Positions 20,323 to 34,304 of a stretch of 64,000 bases of DNA are shown here, one piece after another. The translations under genes and the position numbers were made by a program. The first letter of the stretch is position 1, and each line of letters opens with the position of its first letter. Below the pieces are notes generated by a model, which ran no database searches, was not told the origin of the DNA, and was given only the letters and a program-made list of their open reading frames with translations. This DNA comes from Thermoactinomycetaceae bacterium (lineage in GTDB: Bacteria; Bacillota; Bacilli; Thermoactinomycetales; Thermoactinomycetaceae), in assembly GCA_025449975.1 (NCBI GenBank), contig JANWIG010000025.1, positions 20,686 to 84,685 on the forward strand, written 5' to 3'.

Positions 20323-21801
20323 GTGGAAAAAGTAGATATCTTGAAAGATATTGCCGAACGGACTGGAGGAGACATTTACTTAGGTGTGGTCGGTGCGGTG
20401 CGCACCGGAAAATCAACATTTATTAAACGTTTTATGGAACAAGTGGTAATCCCAAATATTCGTGATGAAGCCGAACGGATACGTGCTACAGACGAGCTTC
20501 CACAAAGTGGCGCAGGAAAGACGATCACGACCATCGAACCCAAATTTGTTCCAAATCAAGCAGTCAATCTCCAGGTCGATGAAGGACTAGATGTGAACAT
20601 GCGCCTTGTCGATTGCGTTGGATATGCGATTGATGGCGCGAAAGGCTATGAAGATGAAAATGGACCGCGCATGATCAACACCCCTTGGTTTGATGAACCG
20701 ATTCCATTTCAGGAAGCAGCAGAAGTAGGAACCAGGAAAGTGATTCAAGATCATTCCACGATCGGGATCGTCGTATCGACAGATGGTTCCATTACCGATA
20801 TCCCGCGTTCTTCTTATGAGGAAATAGAGGAGCGAGTCATCAATGAGCTAAAAGAACTGGGGAAACCGTTTATCTTATTGTTAAATAGCACAAACCCCTA
20901 TGGTGAACAAGCTCAAGCTTTACGAGGAGAGTTGGCAGAAAAGTATGATATCCCAGTCATTGCGCTCAGCGTAGCAACGATGGGAGAAGACGAGATTCTC
21001 GGAGTGATGCGTGAAGCATTATTTGAATTCCCCGTTCATGAAGTCAATGTGAACTTGCCCAGCTGGGTAATGGTATTAAATGAGGATCATTGGCTACGTC
21101 GGGAGTTCGAAAGCGCTGTTCGCGAAACCGTTCAAGATATTAAACGGCTTCGTGATGTGGATCGGGTAGTCAGTCAATTTTTACAATTTGACTTTATCGA
21201 ACATGCTGCTTTATCTGGAATGGACATGGGACACGGAGTAGCGGAGATCGATCTCATGGCTCCAGACGAGCTCTATGATCAGATTCTAACCGAAGTCGTC
21301 GGTGTCGAAATCAAAGGAAAAGACCATCTTCTTGAGCTTATGCAAGATTTTGCGATCGCCAAGCGAGAATATGATAAAGTAGCGGATGCTTTAAAAATGG
21401 TGCGTACTACTGGCTATGGCGTCGCTGCTCCATCGGTTGAAGAAATGACCTTGGATGAACCGGAGCTAATCAAACAAGGACCGCGCTTTGGCGTTCGCCT
21501 AAAAGCAACGGCTCCATCGATCCATATGGTACGAGTCAACGTGCAATCCGAATTTGCTCCGATCATCGGATCGGAACGGCAAAGTGAAGAACTTGTTAAC
21601 TACTTAATGAAAGACTTTGAAAATGATCCACTGCGCATCTGGGAATCGGACATTTTTGGTCGTTCCCTCAACTCCATCGTTCGCGAAGGAATTCAAGCCA
21701 AACTCTCCATGATGCCAGAGAATGCCCGCTTTAAACTACAGGAAACTCTCGAACGAATTATTAACGAAGGCTCTGGAGGTCTCATTGCTATTATTTTATA
21801 A
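20323..21801 (+). CDS. spoIVA: Stage IV sporulation protein A, coat morphogenetic ATPase
   Basis: A 492-aa ATPase that polymerises on the forespore surface as the base layer of the spore coat. The start (V)EKVDILKDIAERTGGDIYL matches the family. The Walker A motif GAVRTGKST lies at about residues 24-32, and the sensor/switch region VDCVGYAIDGAKGYEDE follows. The C-terminal EGSGGLIAIIL resembles the conserved end that contacts SpoVM and the membrane. The start is GTG 20323 with GGAGGG 6 nt upstream. The ATG two bases earlier is out of frame and stops after four codons. Confidence 0.97.
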   Translation: MEKVDILKDIAERTGGDIYLGVVGAVRTGKSTFIKRFMEQVVIPNIRDEAERIRATDELPQSGAGKTITTIEPKFVPNQAVNLQVDEGLDVNMRLVDCVGYAIDGAKGYEDENGPRMINTPWFDEPIPFQEAAEVGTRKVIQDHSTIGIVVSTDGSITDIPRSSYEEIEERVINELKELGKPFILLLNSTNPYGEQAQALRGELAEKYDIPVIALSVATMGEDEILGVMREALFEFPVHEVNVNLPSWVMVLNEDHWLRREFESAVRETVQDIKRLRDVDRVVSQFLQFDFIEHAALSGMDMGHGVAEIDLMAPDELYDQILTEVVGVEIKGKDHLLELMQDFAIAKREYDKVADALKMVRTTGYGVAAPSVEEMTLDEPELIKQGPRFGVRLKATAPSIHMVRVNVQSEFAPIIGSERQSEELVNYLMKDFENDPLRIWESDIFGRSLNSIVREGIQAKLSMMPENARFKLQETLERIINEGSGGLIAIIL

Positions 21802-22137: not shown

Positions 22138-22281
22138 ATGAACAAAACAGATCTAATCAATAAAGTAGCTAAAGCAACCGGCAAGTCCAAAAAGGATGCC
22201 ACACTAGCAGTAGAAGCAGTCTTTGGAGCAATCACTGAAGCTTTGCGTGATGGGAACAAAGTACAATTAATCGGGTTCGGC
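22138..22281 (+). CDS. hbs: hbs exon 1 (codons 1-48)
   Basis: The helical dimerisation half of HU up to Gly48 (IGFG). The exon ends with ATCGGG TTCGGC, which serve as the intron-binding sequences IBS2 and IBS1 of intron 1. Confidence 0.93.
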
Positions 22282-25200
22282 GTGCGCCCGTAAGGCTTTT
22301 GTAGAAATGCCGAAAGGCTAGGAGAAAAGCTGCTCCTATTACCACTGACCTCATCTCGGACCGAAAGGAAAGAGGGAGTGTAGCATGGTCAGAAAGGCAT
22401 AAGTCAACTTCGCTGCCAAAGTTGCGACTGAATGCCGAGGTAAGGACAAACAGATAAGGTGAAGGCTTGGATTAGCTTGAAGCTCAGCACTGGTGGGATA
22501 AACCGATCCCCCTTATCGTTGGCAGTATTTAGATAAGGTCTGCGAAAGCTCCTTGGAAGGAGATTGTAGTTGCCTCATTGCCGAAGGGGTGGCTATCAGC
22601 TTTGAAACCGCAGAACCATCTCCAATGGAGAATTGTGTGCGAACGAGACACCTAAGTCTGTTTATCGTTCTACAAAAAGCTAAACGGGGATTACCTAAGT
22701 GGAATTTTCCATATGGTAACGGAGTTCCCATAGTAGTCCGCGCTAGGGAAAGCCTAGTACATGGCGAAGGGGAACAGCTGCTAATGGCTTGAAAGTACCG
22801 AGGGGGTATCGAATGATGCAAAAGCCCGAGGAACTGCTCAAGATACTATCTACGAATACAGTTCGAAACGATGGAAAGTGGAGGCATAAAGACCTTTATC
22901 GCCAACTTTACAACCCCGCGCTCTATCAGCTGGCTCGTCCAAAGTGGGGTTACCCAAAGATCGATCCGAACCGCTTATCAGCAATCATCTCACAACTGAT
23001 CGCAGAACTTAGAAACGAACAATATCAGCCGCAGCCCGCTAAACAACGTTCCTTTTCGGAGCGCTTTGCTCCTGTGATGATCGCTGATCAACTATTGCAA
23101 CTGGCGATCAAACGGATCTTAGAAAGCATTTATGACCCGCTCTTCTCTGAAGATAGCCATGGAGCCCGTTCCGGAAGAAACTGTCATACAGCCCTGTTAC
23201 ATATCCGAAAACAATCGCGAGGCAAGATCTGGTGGATCACCGGTGAGCTAAACCCATCGATCCAGTCTTTCAATCATCATCTTCTCATTCAGCTGTTACA
23301 AAAGAAAATTAGAGATGATCGGTTTCTTCGCTTAATCCGGAAATTTTTAAACGCGGGATTCCTTGAAGAATGGCACTCACCGTCTCCCTTGACCGGTCGC
23401 CTCCAAGGCGGTCTACTCAGTCCCATTCTTCTCAATATCTATCTTCATGAGCTGGATCAATGGATCTTCGCTCAGGCGCGGGAGAATCGACAAGCGTATA
23501 GCCGTTATTTGGATACTTGGATCATCGGATTTAAGGGTTCAAAAAAAGAGGCGATACAATTTCAGAAAACACTAAATCAATATTTACATGAGCAACTACA
23601 GCTGAACGTGACCGATGAGATGAAATTATACCATGGTAAAAAAGGGGTTCCCTTTCTCGGTTATCAGCTTGCGTATGCCAAATCCCCAACCAATCATGCT
23701 TCAGAGGGACCTATCTATCAACTATGGATGCCGAAACGCAAAGAGTTTGAATTTATCTTAGAATATGGTTTGGGCAAACTGGAAGCGGGTCAGTGGAAAG
23801 CACTTGCTGTCAAAAAGCTTTTTATGCAGGATGATCAGACGATTATCAACTGGTATAATGCTACTTTCCGTCGGTTGTATGACCATTATCAATTGGCAAC
23901 CAATGTATCGCGGTTGCGCTCGGCTCGGTGGATTTGGAAATTGAGTTGGGGTAAAACCATGGCGAATAAATATCGGACACAAAAAGCAAAGATCTTTGCA
24001 AAATATCGGATCGGCAAACGGATCGGCGTGAAGCATCAAGGGATGATTACCTACCTGTTTGATGAATCCTTGCGAAAGCAAAGCGATGCTTACTAGCGTG
24101 TTTCGCGATGCAATTGAAGTCAGTTTGTCGCCTTTCGTTATGCCACGGTCCACTCTTCATCTTCATTGTTTTCATAGATAGTAGAAGATTGGCAGCGGAG
24201 AGCCGTATACGCTGAAAGGTGTACGTACGGTTCGGAGGGAAGAGCATGGAAACCTGCTTACGCTCGGCAAGGCGCTGTGTTCTTACCCTACAACTTTGAA
24301 GTACGTGAACGTGCAGAAAGAAAAGGGCGTAATCCACAAACTGTGCGCGCTGATCAGCTGCTTGTCTAACCTCAAAAAGGGAAGCAGCTCGTCCAATTAG
24401 AAAAGTGGCATAAGGCACCACATGATCCGGTAGATGATCATAGGTTGCTCTTCTTACCCTGTAGGGAAACCGATCAGGGGACCATAGCATGAAGAGAAAG
24501 CTCCAAGTTAAACGAACTCACCGTTTACGACTGAGGAGCGAAACCAAGTTGACATGAGGATAAAAGCCAGACTGCTTGAAGGATAACTCGACGGCTTTGG
24601 ATTGGCAGATGGGTTACGTGAGGAATATTCCCATCTCCTGCTAAGGTTTCTGTACCAGTTTGACAGAAATCATCTACCTAAGAGCAGGCGAGCGTTCGAT
24701 CGGAACGAAACGAGTGGAAGTCCTATCCGACAGTCAACAGGCCTAGTCTAATTGGGCAACGGCGGATCACCTAAGTTAGCCAGACGATTTTAAAGTTGGC
24801 TAATAGGGTGACGGAGTCTTCATAGTAGTCCGAGGTAGGGAAAGCCTACTACATGGCGAAGGAAGACAGTTTGGGAAGTACAAAACAAGTCCAGAGGGAG
24901 CGTGTGAGACGCTATGAGGAACTTTGAAACTGTTTTGTACAACTTAGCCAAGCAGGCGAAAAACAGGGAGTATCGATTTGAAAGACTGATTCGCCTTCTC
25001 TACAATCCAGACTTTTATCGCAAAGCATCTCGTTGGACTAGCTCCATGCAGAAAATAGATTATGCCGAGCTTGTCCCCTTGATTGAAGCGCTAAAAAGCG
25101 AAAGCTATGCATCGGATCCCAAAGAAATCGATCCAATCAAGGATCAACTGGTACAAGAAGCGATCCGAATCATCTTGGAGACCATTTATGAACCGATCTT

Positions 25201-26595
25201 TAGCAAGCACTCGCACGGATTTCGGCGAGCGAGAAGCTGTCATACCGCTCTTCAGGAGATTGATGCGCTGTTCACTGGAACCAAGTGGTGGATCAAAGGC
25301 GATCTGCAAGAGGCTTTGTCGCATCTTTCACATCATCGTTTGCTTCAAATCTTGCAGAAGCGGATCAAGGATCAAAAATTTCTCAGACTGCTTTCAAAAC
25401 TACTCTTCCGGGGAGTCCATACTGACTGGAAGGATGGGAAGCGCTTCTCGGGAGTGCGTTTAGGAGGCATTCTCAGTCCGATTCTGTCCAACATCTATTT
25501 GCACGAACTGGATCAGTTTGTAACCGACTTATCTCGCCAAAAAGGAGAGCGTTTTCCGAAAATCCGTTATGTGCGTTATGCCGATCAATTTTTGCTTGGG
25601 ATCGTCGGGACCAAAAGCGATGCCGAGCGGCTCAGCCAGGAAATCGCTCATTGGCTGAAGGATGAATTGAGAATCGAGCCTTGTGACCTGGCGCTCCAAT
25701 GGATTCATCATTCGCAGGCGATTCGATTCCTCGGATATGAGATCCAAGTGCGGGCGGATGGCAAAATGCGTTTTTCTATGCCGAAAGAAACGAGCATCCA
25801 ATGGCTCCGTGAAAATCAAATGATTGCGTTTCAAAAGGATGGGAGATGGAAACCGGTAGCGAAAGATGCCTGGGTTCATTTGCCTGATCCGGATCTCCTC
25901 AACCGTTATAATCGGCTGCTGACGCGAATCCATCACCATTTTTCACTGGCTGACAATCTCTATCGGCAGATGAGCACCATAAAGTATGCGATGGAGTACA
26001 GTTGTCTTTGTACCCTTGCCAAAAAACATAAAAGTTCGGTCAGGGCGTTAAGAAAGAAACTAAGCCGCGGAAAAGAGTGGGGGATCAAGCAGTGGACAGC
26101 CGAAGGGGAAAAATGGATCAGCATCTCTTATGTACCCGATGCAAAGAAAAGGATGAAATCAGTTTGATCCTGTCCAATCGATGAGTATGCAACTCGCAGC
26201 GATTGGAGAAAAAGTTGTTTACTTTGCTGTGAAGTCGGAATAACAACGGGGGTTTCATACTCATCATGTAGACAAACATGTTAATTAGAAAGTAATACCG
26301 AGACTTCCTGTTGAGAGCGATTTTTAGGCTTGGCTAAGGGAGTACCAAACGGAGAGCCGGATGCATGGAGACATGCTTGTCCGGTTCGGAGGGGGAAACC
26401 AGGAATCCGGTTGATCACATAACGATCGGCGCTTGGTTTCTACCCTACGGTGCGGAAATTACGATTGCAGCAACCAGAGTCCCTGCATTTAAACCAGGTA
26501 AACAGTTAAAGGAAGAAGTGAATAAAGGAGCTGCTGCTCTAAAAGCAAAGAAAAACGAAAAAGAAGAGGCAGCTAAAAAAGATTCGACTAAGTAA
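22138..26595 (+). CDS. hbs: DNA-binding protein HU, split into three exons by two group II introns
   Basis: HU is the histone-like dimer that bends and packs bacterial DNA. Joining 22138-22281, 24292-24342 and 26449-26595 gives a 113-aa protein colinear with B. subtilis HBsu. Codons 1-48 start MNKTDLINKVAKATGKSKKD and end VQLIGFG. Codons 49-65 read NFEVRERAERKGRNPQT. Codons 66-113 start GAEITIAATRVPAFKPGK. The DNA-clamping arm is therefore assembled only after both introns are removed. Both junctions fall exactly between codons. AGGAGG precedes ATG 22138. The C-terminus runs about 20 residues past the usual end as a Lys/Glu/Ala-rich tail. Without splicing, translation stops at 22293 after a 51-residue fragment. 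Confidence 0.93.
22813..24096 (+). CDS. Group II intron-encoded protein 1, RT-defective maturase
   Basis: A 427-aa LtrA-like protein. The reverse transcriptase blocks are recognisable: SHGARSGRNCHTALLHI at about 115-131 (usually HGFRPGRSCHTAL), GRLQGGLLSPILLNIYLHEL from 195, and LGYQLAYA near 283. The thumb/maturase X domain is at about 343-419 (IINWYNATFRRLYDHYQLA, then KYRIGKRIG). The active site is damaged: YADD is replaced by YLDT (232-235), and the motif A GDI is TGEL with the aspartate changed to glutamate. No DNA-binding or HNH endonuclease domain follows. ATG 22813 follows AGGGGGT. It probably only assists splicing of its intron. Confidence 0.9.
   Translation: MMQKPEELLKILSTNTVRNDGKWRHKDLYRQLYNPALYQLARPKWGYPKIDPNRLSAIISQLIAELRNEQYQPQPAKQRSFSERFAPVMIADQLLQLAIKRILESIYDPLFSEDSHGARSGRNCHTALLHIRKQSRGKIWWITGELNPSIQSFNHHLLIQLLQKKIRDDRFLRLIRKFLNAGFLEEWHSPSPLTGRLQGGLLSPILLNIYLHELDQWIFAQARENRQAYSRYLDTWIIGFKGSKKEAIQFQKTLNQYLHEQLQLNVTDEMKLYHGKKGVPFLGYQLAYAKSPTNHASEGPIYQLWMPKRKEFEFILEYGLGKLEAGQWKALAVKKLFMQDDQTIINWYNATFRRLYDHYQLATNVSRLRSARWIWKLSWGKTMANKYRTQKAKIFAKYRIGKRIGVKHQGMITYLFDESLRKQSDAY
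24200..24233 (+). ncRNA. Domain V of group II intron 1
   Basis: A 34-nt hairpin starting GAGCCGTATAC and ending ACGGTTC, with a GAAA tetraloop and the catalytic AGC triad in GAGCCG. Arms GAGCCGT and ACGGTTC pair with one G-U. Confidence 0.93.
24292..24342 (+). CDS. hbs: hbs exon 2, 51-nt micro-exon (codons 49-65)
   Basis: Encodes NFEVRERAERKGRNPQT, the beta-strand leading into the DNA-binding arm and the most conserved part of HU. Its last 12 bases, AATCCA CAAACT, are IBS2 and IBS1 for intron 2. Confidence 0.93.
24914..26167 (+). CDS. Group II intron-encoded protein 2, RT-defective maturase
   Basis: A 417-aa relative of the first intron protein. The RT2 block SKHSHGFRRARSCHTAL (about 97-113) and GGILSPILSNIYLHELDQF (184-202) are well kept. 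Motif A retains the aspartate (KGDLQEALSH, 128-137) but lacks the usual CFD. The YADD box reads YADQ (222-225), losing the second aspartate. A thumb/X domain follows (LLNRYNRLLTRIHHHFSLADN, about 328-348). There is no C-terminal endonuclease. ATG 24914 is preceded by GAGGGAG. The likely role is maturase for intron 2. Whether the two proteins act on each other's introns is unknown. Confidence 0.9.
   Translation: MRNFETVLYNLAKQAKNREYRFERLIRLLYNPDFYRKASRWTSSMQKIDYAELVPLIEALKSESYASDPKEIDPIKDQLVQEAIRIILETIYEPIFSKHSHGFRRARSCHTALQEIDALFTGTKWWIKGDLQEALSHLSHHRLLQILQKRIKDQKFLRLLSKLLFRGVHTDWKDGKRFSGVRLGGILSPILSNIYLHELDQFVTDLSRQKGERFPKIRYVRYADQFLLGIVGTKSDAERLSQEIAHWLKDELRIEPCDLALQWIHHSQAIRFLGYEIQVRADGKMRFSMPKETSIQWLRENQMIAFQKDGRWKPVAKDAWVHLPDPDLLNRYNRLLTRIHHHFSLADNLYRQMSTIKYAMEYSCLCTLAKKHKSSVRALRKKLSRGKEWGIKQWTAEGEKWISISYVPDAKKRMKSV
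26354..26387 (+). ncRNA. Domain V of group II intron 2
   Basis: A 34-nt hairpin starting GAGCCGGATGC and ending TCCGGTTC, with a GAGA tetraloop and the AGC triad. It differs from intron 1's domain V by compensating changes in the upper stem. Confidence 0.93.
26449..26595 (+). CDS. hbs: hbs exon 3 (codons 66-113)
   Basis: Starts GAEITIAATRVPAFKPGKQL, the second half of the DNA-binding arm with the intercalating proline region and the C-terminal helix. It then continues into a charged tail (KAKKNEKEEAAKKDSTK) absent from most HU proteins. It has no plausible start codon or ribosome site of its own for HU. Confidence 0.92.
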   Translation, partial: GAEITIAATRVPAFKPGKQLKEEVNKGAAALKAKKNEKEEAAKKDSTK

Positions 26596-26607: not shown

Positions 26608-26638
26608 GAAAAGGTCCTTCGCGGGCCTTTTCTTTTTG
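26608..26638 (+). terminator. Intrinsic terminator of hbs
   Basis: Stem GAAAAGGTCC / GGGCCTTTTC with loop TTCG-C, then TTTTT. Confidence 0.88.
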
Positions 26639-26670: not shown

Positions 26671-26780
26671 TGAGCCAGCTGTTTGAAAATATCTGTTTAG
26701 AAAACCATCATCTGTAGGAAAGGTTATGCTAAACAGTCAAATAGGTAGGTAAGTTGCAGAAGTGGATGGAGGAATTAATC

Positions 26781-27347
26781 ATGCCAGTGGACCATCAAAA
26801 AATTGAGACGGCTGTTCGAATGATTTTGGAAGCCATCGGAGAAGATCCCGACCGCGAGGGATTGTTGGATACGCCGAAGCGTGTCGCGCGGATGTATGAA
26901 GAGATTTTTGCCGGACTCAAGCAGAATCCGGAAGATTTTTTTTCGGTTATTTTTAGTGAAGATCACGAAGAGCTTGTGCTGGTAAAGGATATTCCGTTTT
27001 TCTCTACCTGTGAACATCATTTGGTTCCTTTTTTCGGCAAAGCGCATATCGGTTATATCCCGCGAGGAGGTCGTGTCGTCGGACTCTCGAAGCTGGCCCG
27101 GGCGGTGGAGGCAGTGGCGAGACGTCCCCAATTGCAGGAGCGGATCACCGCTGAGATCGCCGATTCGATCACGAAAAAGCTGGATCCGCATGGTGTGATC
27201 GTCGTGATCGAAGCGGAACATATGTGTATGACCATGCGCGGGGTAAAAAAACCAGGTTCAAAAACGATTACTTCGGCGGTAAGAGGCGTATTGGCAGAAG
27301 ATGCTTCCTCACGTGCGGAAGCGCTTAGTTTAATTGGCTTAAAATAA
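26781..27347 (+). CDS. folE: GTP cyclohydrolase I
   Basis: Converts GTP to dihydroneopterin triphosphate, the first step of folate synthesis. The 188-aa protein has [19 protein letters not shown] (zinc ligands Cys and His), [18 protein letters not shown] and [17 protein letters not shown] with the second zinc cysteine. These are the full signatures of the FolE type I family. ATG 26781 is chosen because GGAGG lies about 8 nt upstream. The earlier in-frame ATG lacks such a site. In B. subtilis this gene is mtrA and is cotranscribed with mtrB, whereas here a tRNA unit separates the two. Confidence 0.96.
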
Positions 27348-27533: not shown

Positions 27534-27610
27534 CGGGCTATGGCGCAGCTTGGTAGCGCGCTTGCATGGGGCGCAAGAGGTCGTCAGTTCAAATCTGGCT
27601 AGCCCGACCA
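27534..27610 (+). tRNA. tRNA-Pro, anticodon GGG
   Basis: A 77-nt cloverleaf. The acceptor stem CGGGCTA / TAGCCCG is perfect, with discriminator A and encoded CCA. The D stem is GCGC / GCGC. The anticodon stem CTTGC / GCAAG encloses loop ATGGGGC, placing GGG at positions 34-36. The T arm is GTCAG-TTCAAAT-CTGGC with one wobble pair. It decodes CCC/CCU proline codons. Confidence 0.95.
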
Positions 27611-34188: not shown

Positions 34189-34304
34189 TCTCTTATCCAG
34201 AGTGGCGGAGGGACTGGCCCAATGAAGCCCGGCAACCTTTGATATCTTTCTAGATATTGATTGGTGCTAATTCCAGCAGGATTTTATTCCTGGAAGATAA
34301 GAGA
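34189..34304 (+). promoter_or_regulatory. SAM-I riboswitch (S-box) aptamer
   Basis: Contains the S-box core CAGAGTGGCGGAGGGACTGG and CCCAATGAAGCCCGGCAACC at 34198-34237. P1 is formed by TCTCTTATC (34189-34197) and GATAAGAGA (34296-34304). The sequence TCTCTTATC recurs exactly at 34331-34339 in the terminator loop and 5' arm, so GATAAGAGA can pair with either copy. With SAM it closes P1 and the terminator forms. Without SAM it pairs downstream and transcription continues into metI. Confidence 0.96.

Follow-up and report, generated by a model that had tools for sequence, protein, structure and literature searches.

Group II introns in housekeeping genes are already known in the Bacillota, as Chee and Takami reportedly described one in 2005 in the recA gene of Geobacillus kaustophilus. 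LtrA, the protein of the Ll.LtrB intron, is an active RT with an endonuclease. According to the available text of a 2015 review (PMC4424553), bacterial group II introns are mainly mobile DNAs that lie mostly outside housekeeping genes. In the same text, ORF-less introns are rare in bacteria, and so are degenerate intron proteins, the sole example known as of 2015 being O.i.I2 in radC of Oceanobacillus iheyensis, whose protein lacks YADD and is presumed to be a maturase; an endonuclease domain is also missing from some mobile group II classes. The review further covers the trnK intron of chloroplasts, which resides in an essential gene and whose protein MatK has lost RT motifs, kept domain X, and likely serves an ORF-less relative in trans. 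The accessible part of a 2018 paper (PMC6003770), which names a relaxase gene as the host of Ll.LtrB, proposes that introns are rare in essential genes because their presence lowers host-gene expression, and speculates that exceptions reflect a low need for expression, only a mild reduction, or regulation.

The window, the whole stretch of 64,000 nucleotides analyzed here, contains an HU gene (hbs) whose three exons are set apart by two introns of group II, 2010 and 2106 nt long. The genome (G000) resembles G. kaustophilus in that its recA also contains a group II intron. Unlike in that species, HU is a host here, with two introns in one gene and one in its paralogue, and intron proteins are altered in their RT residues. 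A literature search found no paper on group II introns in Thermoactinomyces or Thermoactinomycetaceae, and no report of an HU or parA intron among the best-matching titles, subscription papers being mostly outside its reach. The features of the locus are as follows.

22138..22281, + strand: exon 1 of hbs, codons 1–48, with IBS2 ATCGG at 22270–22274 and IBS1 TTCGGC at 22276–22281
22282..24291, + strand: group II intron 1 of hbs, 2010 nt, phase 0, GTGCG...ACCCTAC
22503..22507, + strand: candidate EBS2 of intron 1, CCGAT, pairing with IBS2 ATCGG
22580..22585, + strand: EBS1 of intron 1, GCCGAA, pairing with IBS1 at 6 of 6 positions; delta contact between T at 22579 and A at 24292
22813..24096, + strand: intron 1 protein (start codon at 22813 chosen by hand), RT fold, YADD replaced by YLDT, motif-A Asp by Glu, RT1 motif absent, domain X present
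24198..24291, + strand: domains V–VI of intron 1, Rfam RF00029, 64.1 bits
24292..24342, + strand: exon 2 of hbs, codons 49–65, with IBS2 AATCC at 24331–24335 and IBS1 CAAACT at 24337–24342
24343..26448, + strand: group II intron 2 of hbs, 2106 nt, phase 0, GTGCG...ACCCTAC
24599..24603, + strand: candidate EBS2 of intron 2, GGATT, pairing with IBS2 AATCC
24657..24662, + strand: EBS1 of intron 2, AGTTTG, pairing 6/6 with IBS1 CAAACT; delta C at 24656 pairs with G at 26449
24914..26167, + strand: intron 2 protein, YADQ in place of YADD, motif-A Asp retained, RT1 motif deleted, domain X present
26352..26448, + strand: domains V–VI of intron 2, Rfam RF00029, 59.5 bits
26449..26595, + strand: exon 3 of hbs, codons 66–113 and stop
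26608..26632, + strand: intrinsic-terminator-like hairpin 3′ of hbs, consensus match only

The preliminary description of the locus had listed the three gene pieces, the two gaps, the GTGCG starts and the ACCCTAC ends, and a re-reading of the sequence gave the same in every point. The codon-exact joins it proposed are likewise borne out: the joined exons encode an intact 113-residue HU that matches Pfam Bac_DNA_binding (PF00216) with 120.4 bits over residues 1–90, covering profile positions 1–90 of 90. Its assignment of both insertions to group II agrees with the RF00029 scores listed above, the gathering score of this Rfam group II intron model being 40, and with the complete EBS1–IBS1 pairing in each. 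Read without splicing, hbs reaches a stop after 51 codons, that is, 48 HU codons followed by VRP. The exons display omega values of 0.07, 0.08, and 0.13 against three of five hbs genes, at dS of 1.4–2.7, which is near saturation; the remaining two comparisons are saturated. A promoter search at hbs yielded no candidate better than chance. The gene is preceded by spoIVA (20323–21801) and followed by folE/mtrA (26754–27347) and more genes of the usual Bacillus-type neighborhood, as named from their translations. Elsewhere, the window holds a T-box leader (2351–2573, − strand), a tRNA gene (27534–27607, + strand), and a SAM riboswitch (34190–34303, + strand).

Both introns begin with GTGCG and end in AC, in agreement with the group II rule (GUGYG at the 5′ end, AY at the 3′ end). 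EBS1 and IBS1 form 123 of 126 pairs over 21 introns (3 HU and 18 parA). This score was reached in none of 20,000 exon shuffles with fixed sites, a test biased towards the data as the sites had been picked for best pairing; in the fairer control with re-chosen sites it was reached in none of 500 shuffles (mean 113.5, maximum 121). When introns of mutS, nrd, and one transglycosylase gene are added, 172 of 174 pairs form over 29 introns (0/20,000 permutations), L106 being excluded as its 3′ end was not located. The delta–delta′ pair is present in 26 of the 29 (0/20,000 permutations); the failures are L102 and the two introns L117 and L120, whose sites differ from those of the 21-intron test. Between hbs intron 1 (IBS1/EBS1 TTCGGC/GCCGAA) and the intron of the second HU gene (TTTGGT/ACCAAA), the pairing shows a double compensatory difference.

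Domains V–VI also show covariation. In 18 introns, 96.1% of cells are paired and 14 pairs are double-changed, a level seen in none of 500 shuffles, while slid-structure controls pair 32–48% (alignment A3). An unpaired A at −7 is invariant in the predicted consensus of the 18 introns, and the bulged A is expected 7–8 nt from the 3′ end. For the 5′ parts of 12 introns, a consensus fold with 134 pairs is predicted, and at least one double change occurs in 93 of these; in the uncontrolled alignment behind it (A4), hbs intron 2 is displaced at its 5′ end. On these sequence features, both hbs introns are predicted to splice out and to restore the HU mRNA.

The two intron proteins match only RVT_1 and Intron_maturas2 in Pfam. 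The latter (PF01348), which represents domain X, scores 38.3 and 63.1 bits against a cut-off of 20.8, and no Pfam model of an endonuclease domain matched either protein. Compared with the intact relative P0123 (611 residues, with an HNH-like end by manual reading), the RT catalytic triad formed by the motif-A Asp and YADD is incomplete in both. The intron 1 protein has Glu and YLDT, and the intron 2 protein has Asp and YADQ, leaving two of the three catalytic Asp, namely the motif-A residue and the first Asp of YADD. Both proteins are predicted to be inactive as RTs. When the intron 1 protein is modeled with AlphaFold2, the mean pLDDT is 85.8, and no 10-residue block between 311 and 430 falls below 91. 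The PDB entry that matches this model best is an intron–LtrA complex (TM-score 0.83 by query). Ll.LtrB/LtrA is also the nearest solved structure by sequence (1.2e-51; PDB 5g2x, 8h2h). Unlike LtrA, the hbs intron proteins lack the full set of catalytic residues and a matched endonuclease.

Two JGI proteins are close relatives. P0122 is identical to the intron 1 protein at 351 of 427 positions and likewise has YLDT; P0002 is identical to the intron 2 protein at 318 of 416 positions and likewise has YADQ. Neither contains a stop, so that the frames are still open at 18–24% divergence. A neutral simulation to 80% and 76% identity predicts 6.2 and 6.5 stops, with stop-free runs in 2/400 and 0/400 cases; it takes no account of frameshifts or codon bias, nor of the point that stop-bearing frames would hardly be listed as one full-length protein. 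Each of the two proteins is assigned to a contig 37,438 bases long, and we infer that this relative, known as protein only, also has a split hbs. In a tree of 61 proteins, the two hbs intron proteins fall in different lineages, beside the intact relatives P0123 and P0003–P0007, suggesting that they likely arrived separately. Both are fast-evolving, with branches of 0.73 and 0.85 above each pair.

The genome assembly comprises 2.52 Mb in 70 contigs and is 97.7% complete. The preliminary description saw no second complete hbs copy in the window. This view stands in so far as no intact HU gene was found in the assembly, where the HU search gave five matches that are all pieces of two split genes. 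It does not stand as regards the gene number, as a second HU gene exists outside the window and is itself split. This gene, HU-2 (C1:94944-96056), is the only other HU gene found. It is interrupted at the same codon boundary as the intron 1 site of hbs and, when read through its intron, also gives VRP and a stop after 48 HU codons. The intron is 840 nt long and has no intron-type protein ORF. Its alignment with intron 1 gives 72% identity across 554 nt and 79% across 101 nt.

Five group II introns were found in the genome with RF00029, two in hbs and one each in HU-2, parA, and recA, from 150 of the 155 first-look candidates scored; introns whose domain V is unusual would escape this count. 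The parA intron (L013:831-2710, contig C26) holds a 431-residue ORF whose product has Lys at the motif-A Asp and WGEE at YADD. The recA intron (L015:1446-2354, − strand, contig C38) is 909 nt long and has no intron-protein ORF; its joined exons encode a RecA-type protein in a stop-free frame. No protein related to the recA intron was found in the genome, and outside the genome only 54–60 nt around domain V matched, in 3 of 41 genomes. Intron proteins were counted by combining an RVT_1 search, which matched only the two hbs intron proteins, with a separate search for relatives, which added the parA intron protein missed by RVT_1. The full RT catalytic set is absent from all three, and neither search of the assembly turned up an intact group II RT.

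The preliminary description had proposed a survey of hbs in related genomes. In the other 41 of the 42 genomes of the order that were analyzed, the HU matches listed (E up to 1e-20) are uninterrupted, all of them spanning residue 1 to at least residue 90. The description had correctly recognized two introns in hbs, but had missed the lost RT residues, the other core-gene introns, and the order-wide pattern in parA and mutS. The parA gene is cut in its P-loop, between NQKGGVG and KTTT, in up to 20 of the 42 genomes, the ParA match starting at residues 14–16 in 20 and at 1–2 in 22. The 5′ and 3′ splice sites could both be read at 18 of the 19 loci examined, a set without G010; the nineteenth, L125, lies near a contig end. 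In three families of the order the P-loop intron sits at precisely the same position, and most of its proteins are RT-altered. Outside the order, introns at this KTTT boundary encode YADD in Dictyobacter (L135, L136) and in a MAG of the Heliobacteriaceae (L164), and YEDQ in Heliorestis (L167), with both sides read only in L136 and L167. G010, a 2.5-Mb genome of the same family as the window genome, displays an extreme intron load, with at least 113 domain V matches among 129 scored of 351 candidates.

The mutS gene is cut between RLGDFYEMF and F in seven genomes (L094, L098, L100, L101, L104, L106, L111); the site in G015 was read on the 5′ side only, and the L111 intron ends in CACC rather than AY at the assumed boundary. 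The mutS intron of G020 is 797 nt long, and no intron protein was found in it. In G020, a ribonucleotide-reductase-like gene (L099; name assigned by hand) also holds a related intron, whose protein is RT-altered.

At least one catalytic Asp is lost in 26 of 28 core-gene intron proteins (19 parA, 6 mutS, 1 nrd, 2 hbs), a set made up of the loci examined with hbs, parA, mutS, or nrd as host. Further copies (four near-identical matches in G015) and L107, L115, L116, L126, and L128–L132, with other or unread hosts, lie outside the set. YADD is kept in three of the 28, with L108 given different letters at this motif by two alignments, and all three catalytic Asp are kept in two (L105, L106). O.i.I2, also a bacterial group II intron with a YADD-less, presumed maturase protein, is the lone bacterial example in the available text of PMC4424553, in contrast to three such proteins in one genome and 26 of 28 in the order here.

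The RT-altered parA intron proteins give dN/dS of 0.29, 0.25, 0.20, 0.30, and 0.31 in five close pairs, of which the three among L112, L113, and L117 are not independent; the saturated pairs L096–L097 and L013–L097 were not used. Exon 2 of parA gives dN/dS of 0.02–0.07. The dS values of the intron proteins (0.06–0.44) are close to those of exon 2 (0.05–0.41), which fits joint descent. Among 11 parA-type proteins, 20 of 52 invariant columns lie within residues 425–477, the domain X stretch. The collection scan used the 11-sequence parA set A2, set A1 (23 proteins) being too divergent, and possibly omitted the window genome's own records.

The reading we favor, with a probability of roughly 0.8, is that the hbs introns, whose proteins belong to two lineages, are predicted to splice and are likely immobile, given that RT catalytic residues are missing from these proteins, which retain domain X. 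Two mobile introns with RT and endonuclease would have entered hbs in an ancestor of the lineage. The intron 1 type may also have reached the same site of HU-2 and then lost its ORF, and would therefore now likely be served in trans by the intron 1 protein. In a gene indispensable to the cell, RT and endonuclease functions would decay while splicing was kept by selection, which would leave each hbs intron protein a maturase only. From their sequences, the proteins are best read as maturase-only and MatK-like, with a predicted maturase role. The resemblance to trnK/MatK extends to location in an essential gene, loss of RT motifs, retention of domain X, and likely trans service to an ORF-less relative; unlike trnK/MatK, the hbs introns lie in a bacterial chromosome, between protein-gene exons, and belong to independent lineages, and the trans action is our inference.

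It is unlikely that the hbs introns self-splice as ribozymes, their proteins being leftovers in decay or serving the host in some other way. The fast evolution of the proteins and the ORF-less recA intron would suit this, the latter suggesting that maturase dependence may not be general, and the ORF-less bacterial intron C.te.I1 is reported as self-splicing in the available text of PMC4424553. However, leftovers would be expected to have gathered about six stops over the 18–24% divergence from the JGI relatives, and the clustering of invariant columns in domain X and the dN/dS of 0.20–0.31 in the parA relatives also argue against decay. Continued mobility, whether by altered RTs that still work or by an intact RT supplied in trans, is very improbable. 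The intron 1 type does occupy the homologous site in both HU genes, two of three catalytic Asp persist in the intron 2 protein, and the order has related proteins with all catalytic Asp (L105, L106, L107, L115). Against this, the intron 1 protein is altered in motif-A Asp, YADD, and RT1 and the intron 2 protein in YADD and RT1, the endonuclease domain is unmatched in both, and an intact group II RT was not found in the assembly.

HU genes are dispensable in some bacteria, so hbs might be a dead, unspliced gene in a cell that manages without this HU. This is hardly credible: the exons are intact and conserved, the exon–intron pairings covary, and, with HU-2 split at the same site, a dead hbs would leave the cell without any HU found. 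Splicing efficiency of the HU introns might instead act as a regulatory switch responding to temperature or growth phase, which we consider quite unlikely. Related introns in both HU genes would be in keeping with it, but sequence evidence is lacking and HU is normally abundant. That abundance makes the HU genes a sharp test among the explanations of essential-gene introns in the accessible part of PMC6003770, one of which is the speculation that rare introns of this kind are regulatory.

Under the favored reading of two immobile introns with maturase-only proteins, the two hbs introns likely persist only through continued, predicted splicing, as introns do in chloroplasts and mitochondria. 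All five introns found in this one genome have core genes as hosts, HU genes in three cases, with no intact RT found, a departure from the reviewed norm. On balance, it is somewhat more likely than not that group II introns in this bacterial order have turned, more than once, to a way of life like that in organelles, at fixed core-gene sites (parA P-loop, mutS, hbs, HU-2, recA, nrd), inherited with the gene, with RT and endonuclease lost, served by maturases in cis or in trans, and in some cases reduced to bare ribozymes. If this is true, the order would offer, in living bacteria, a parallel to the path by which retroelements become host-dependent introns, and related named strains would make that path testable in bacteria.
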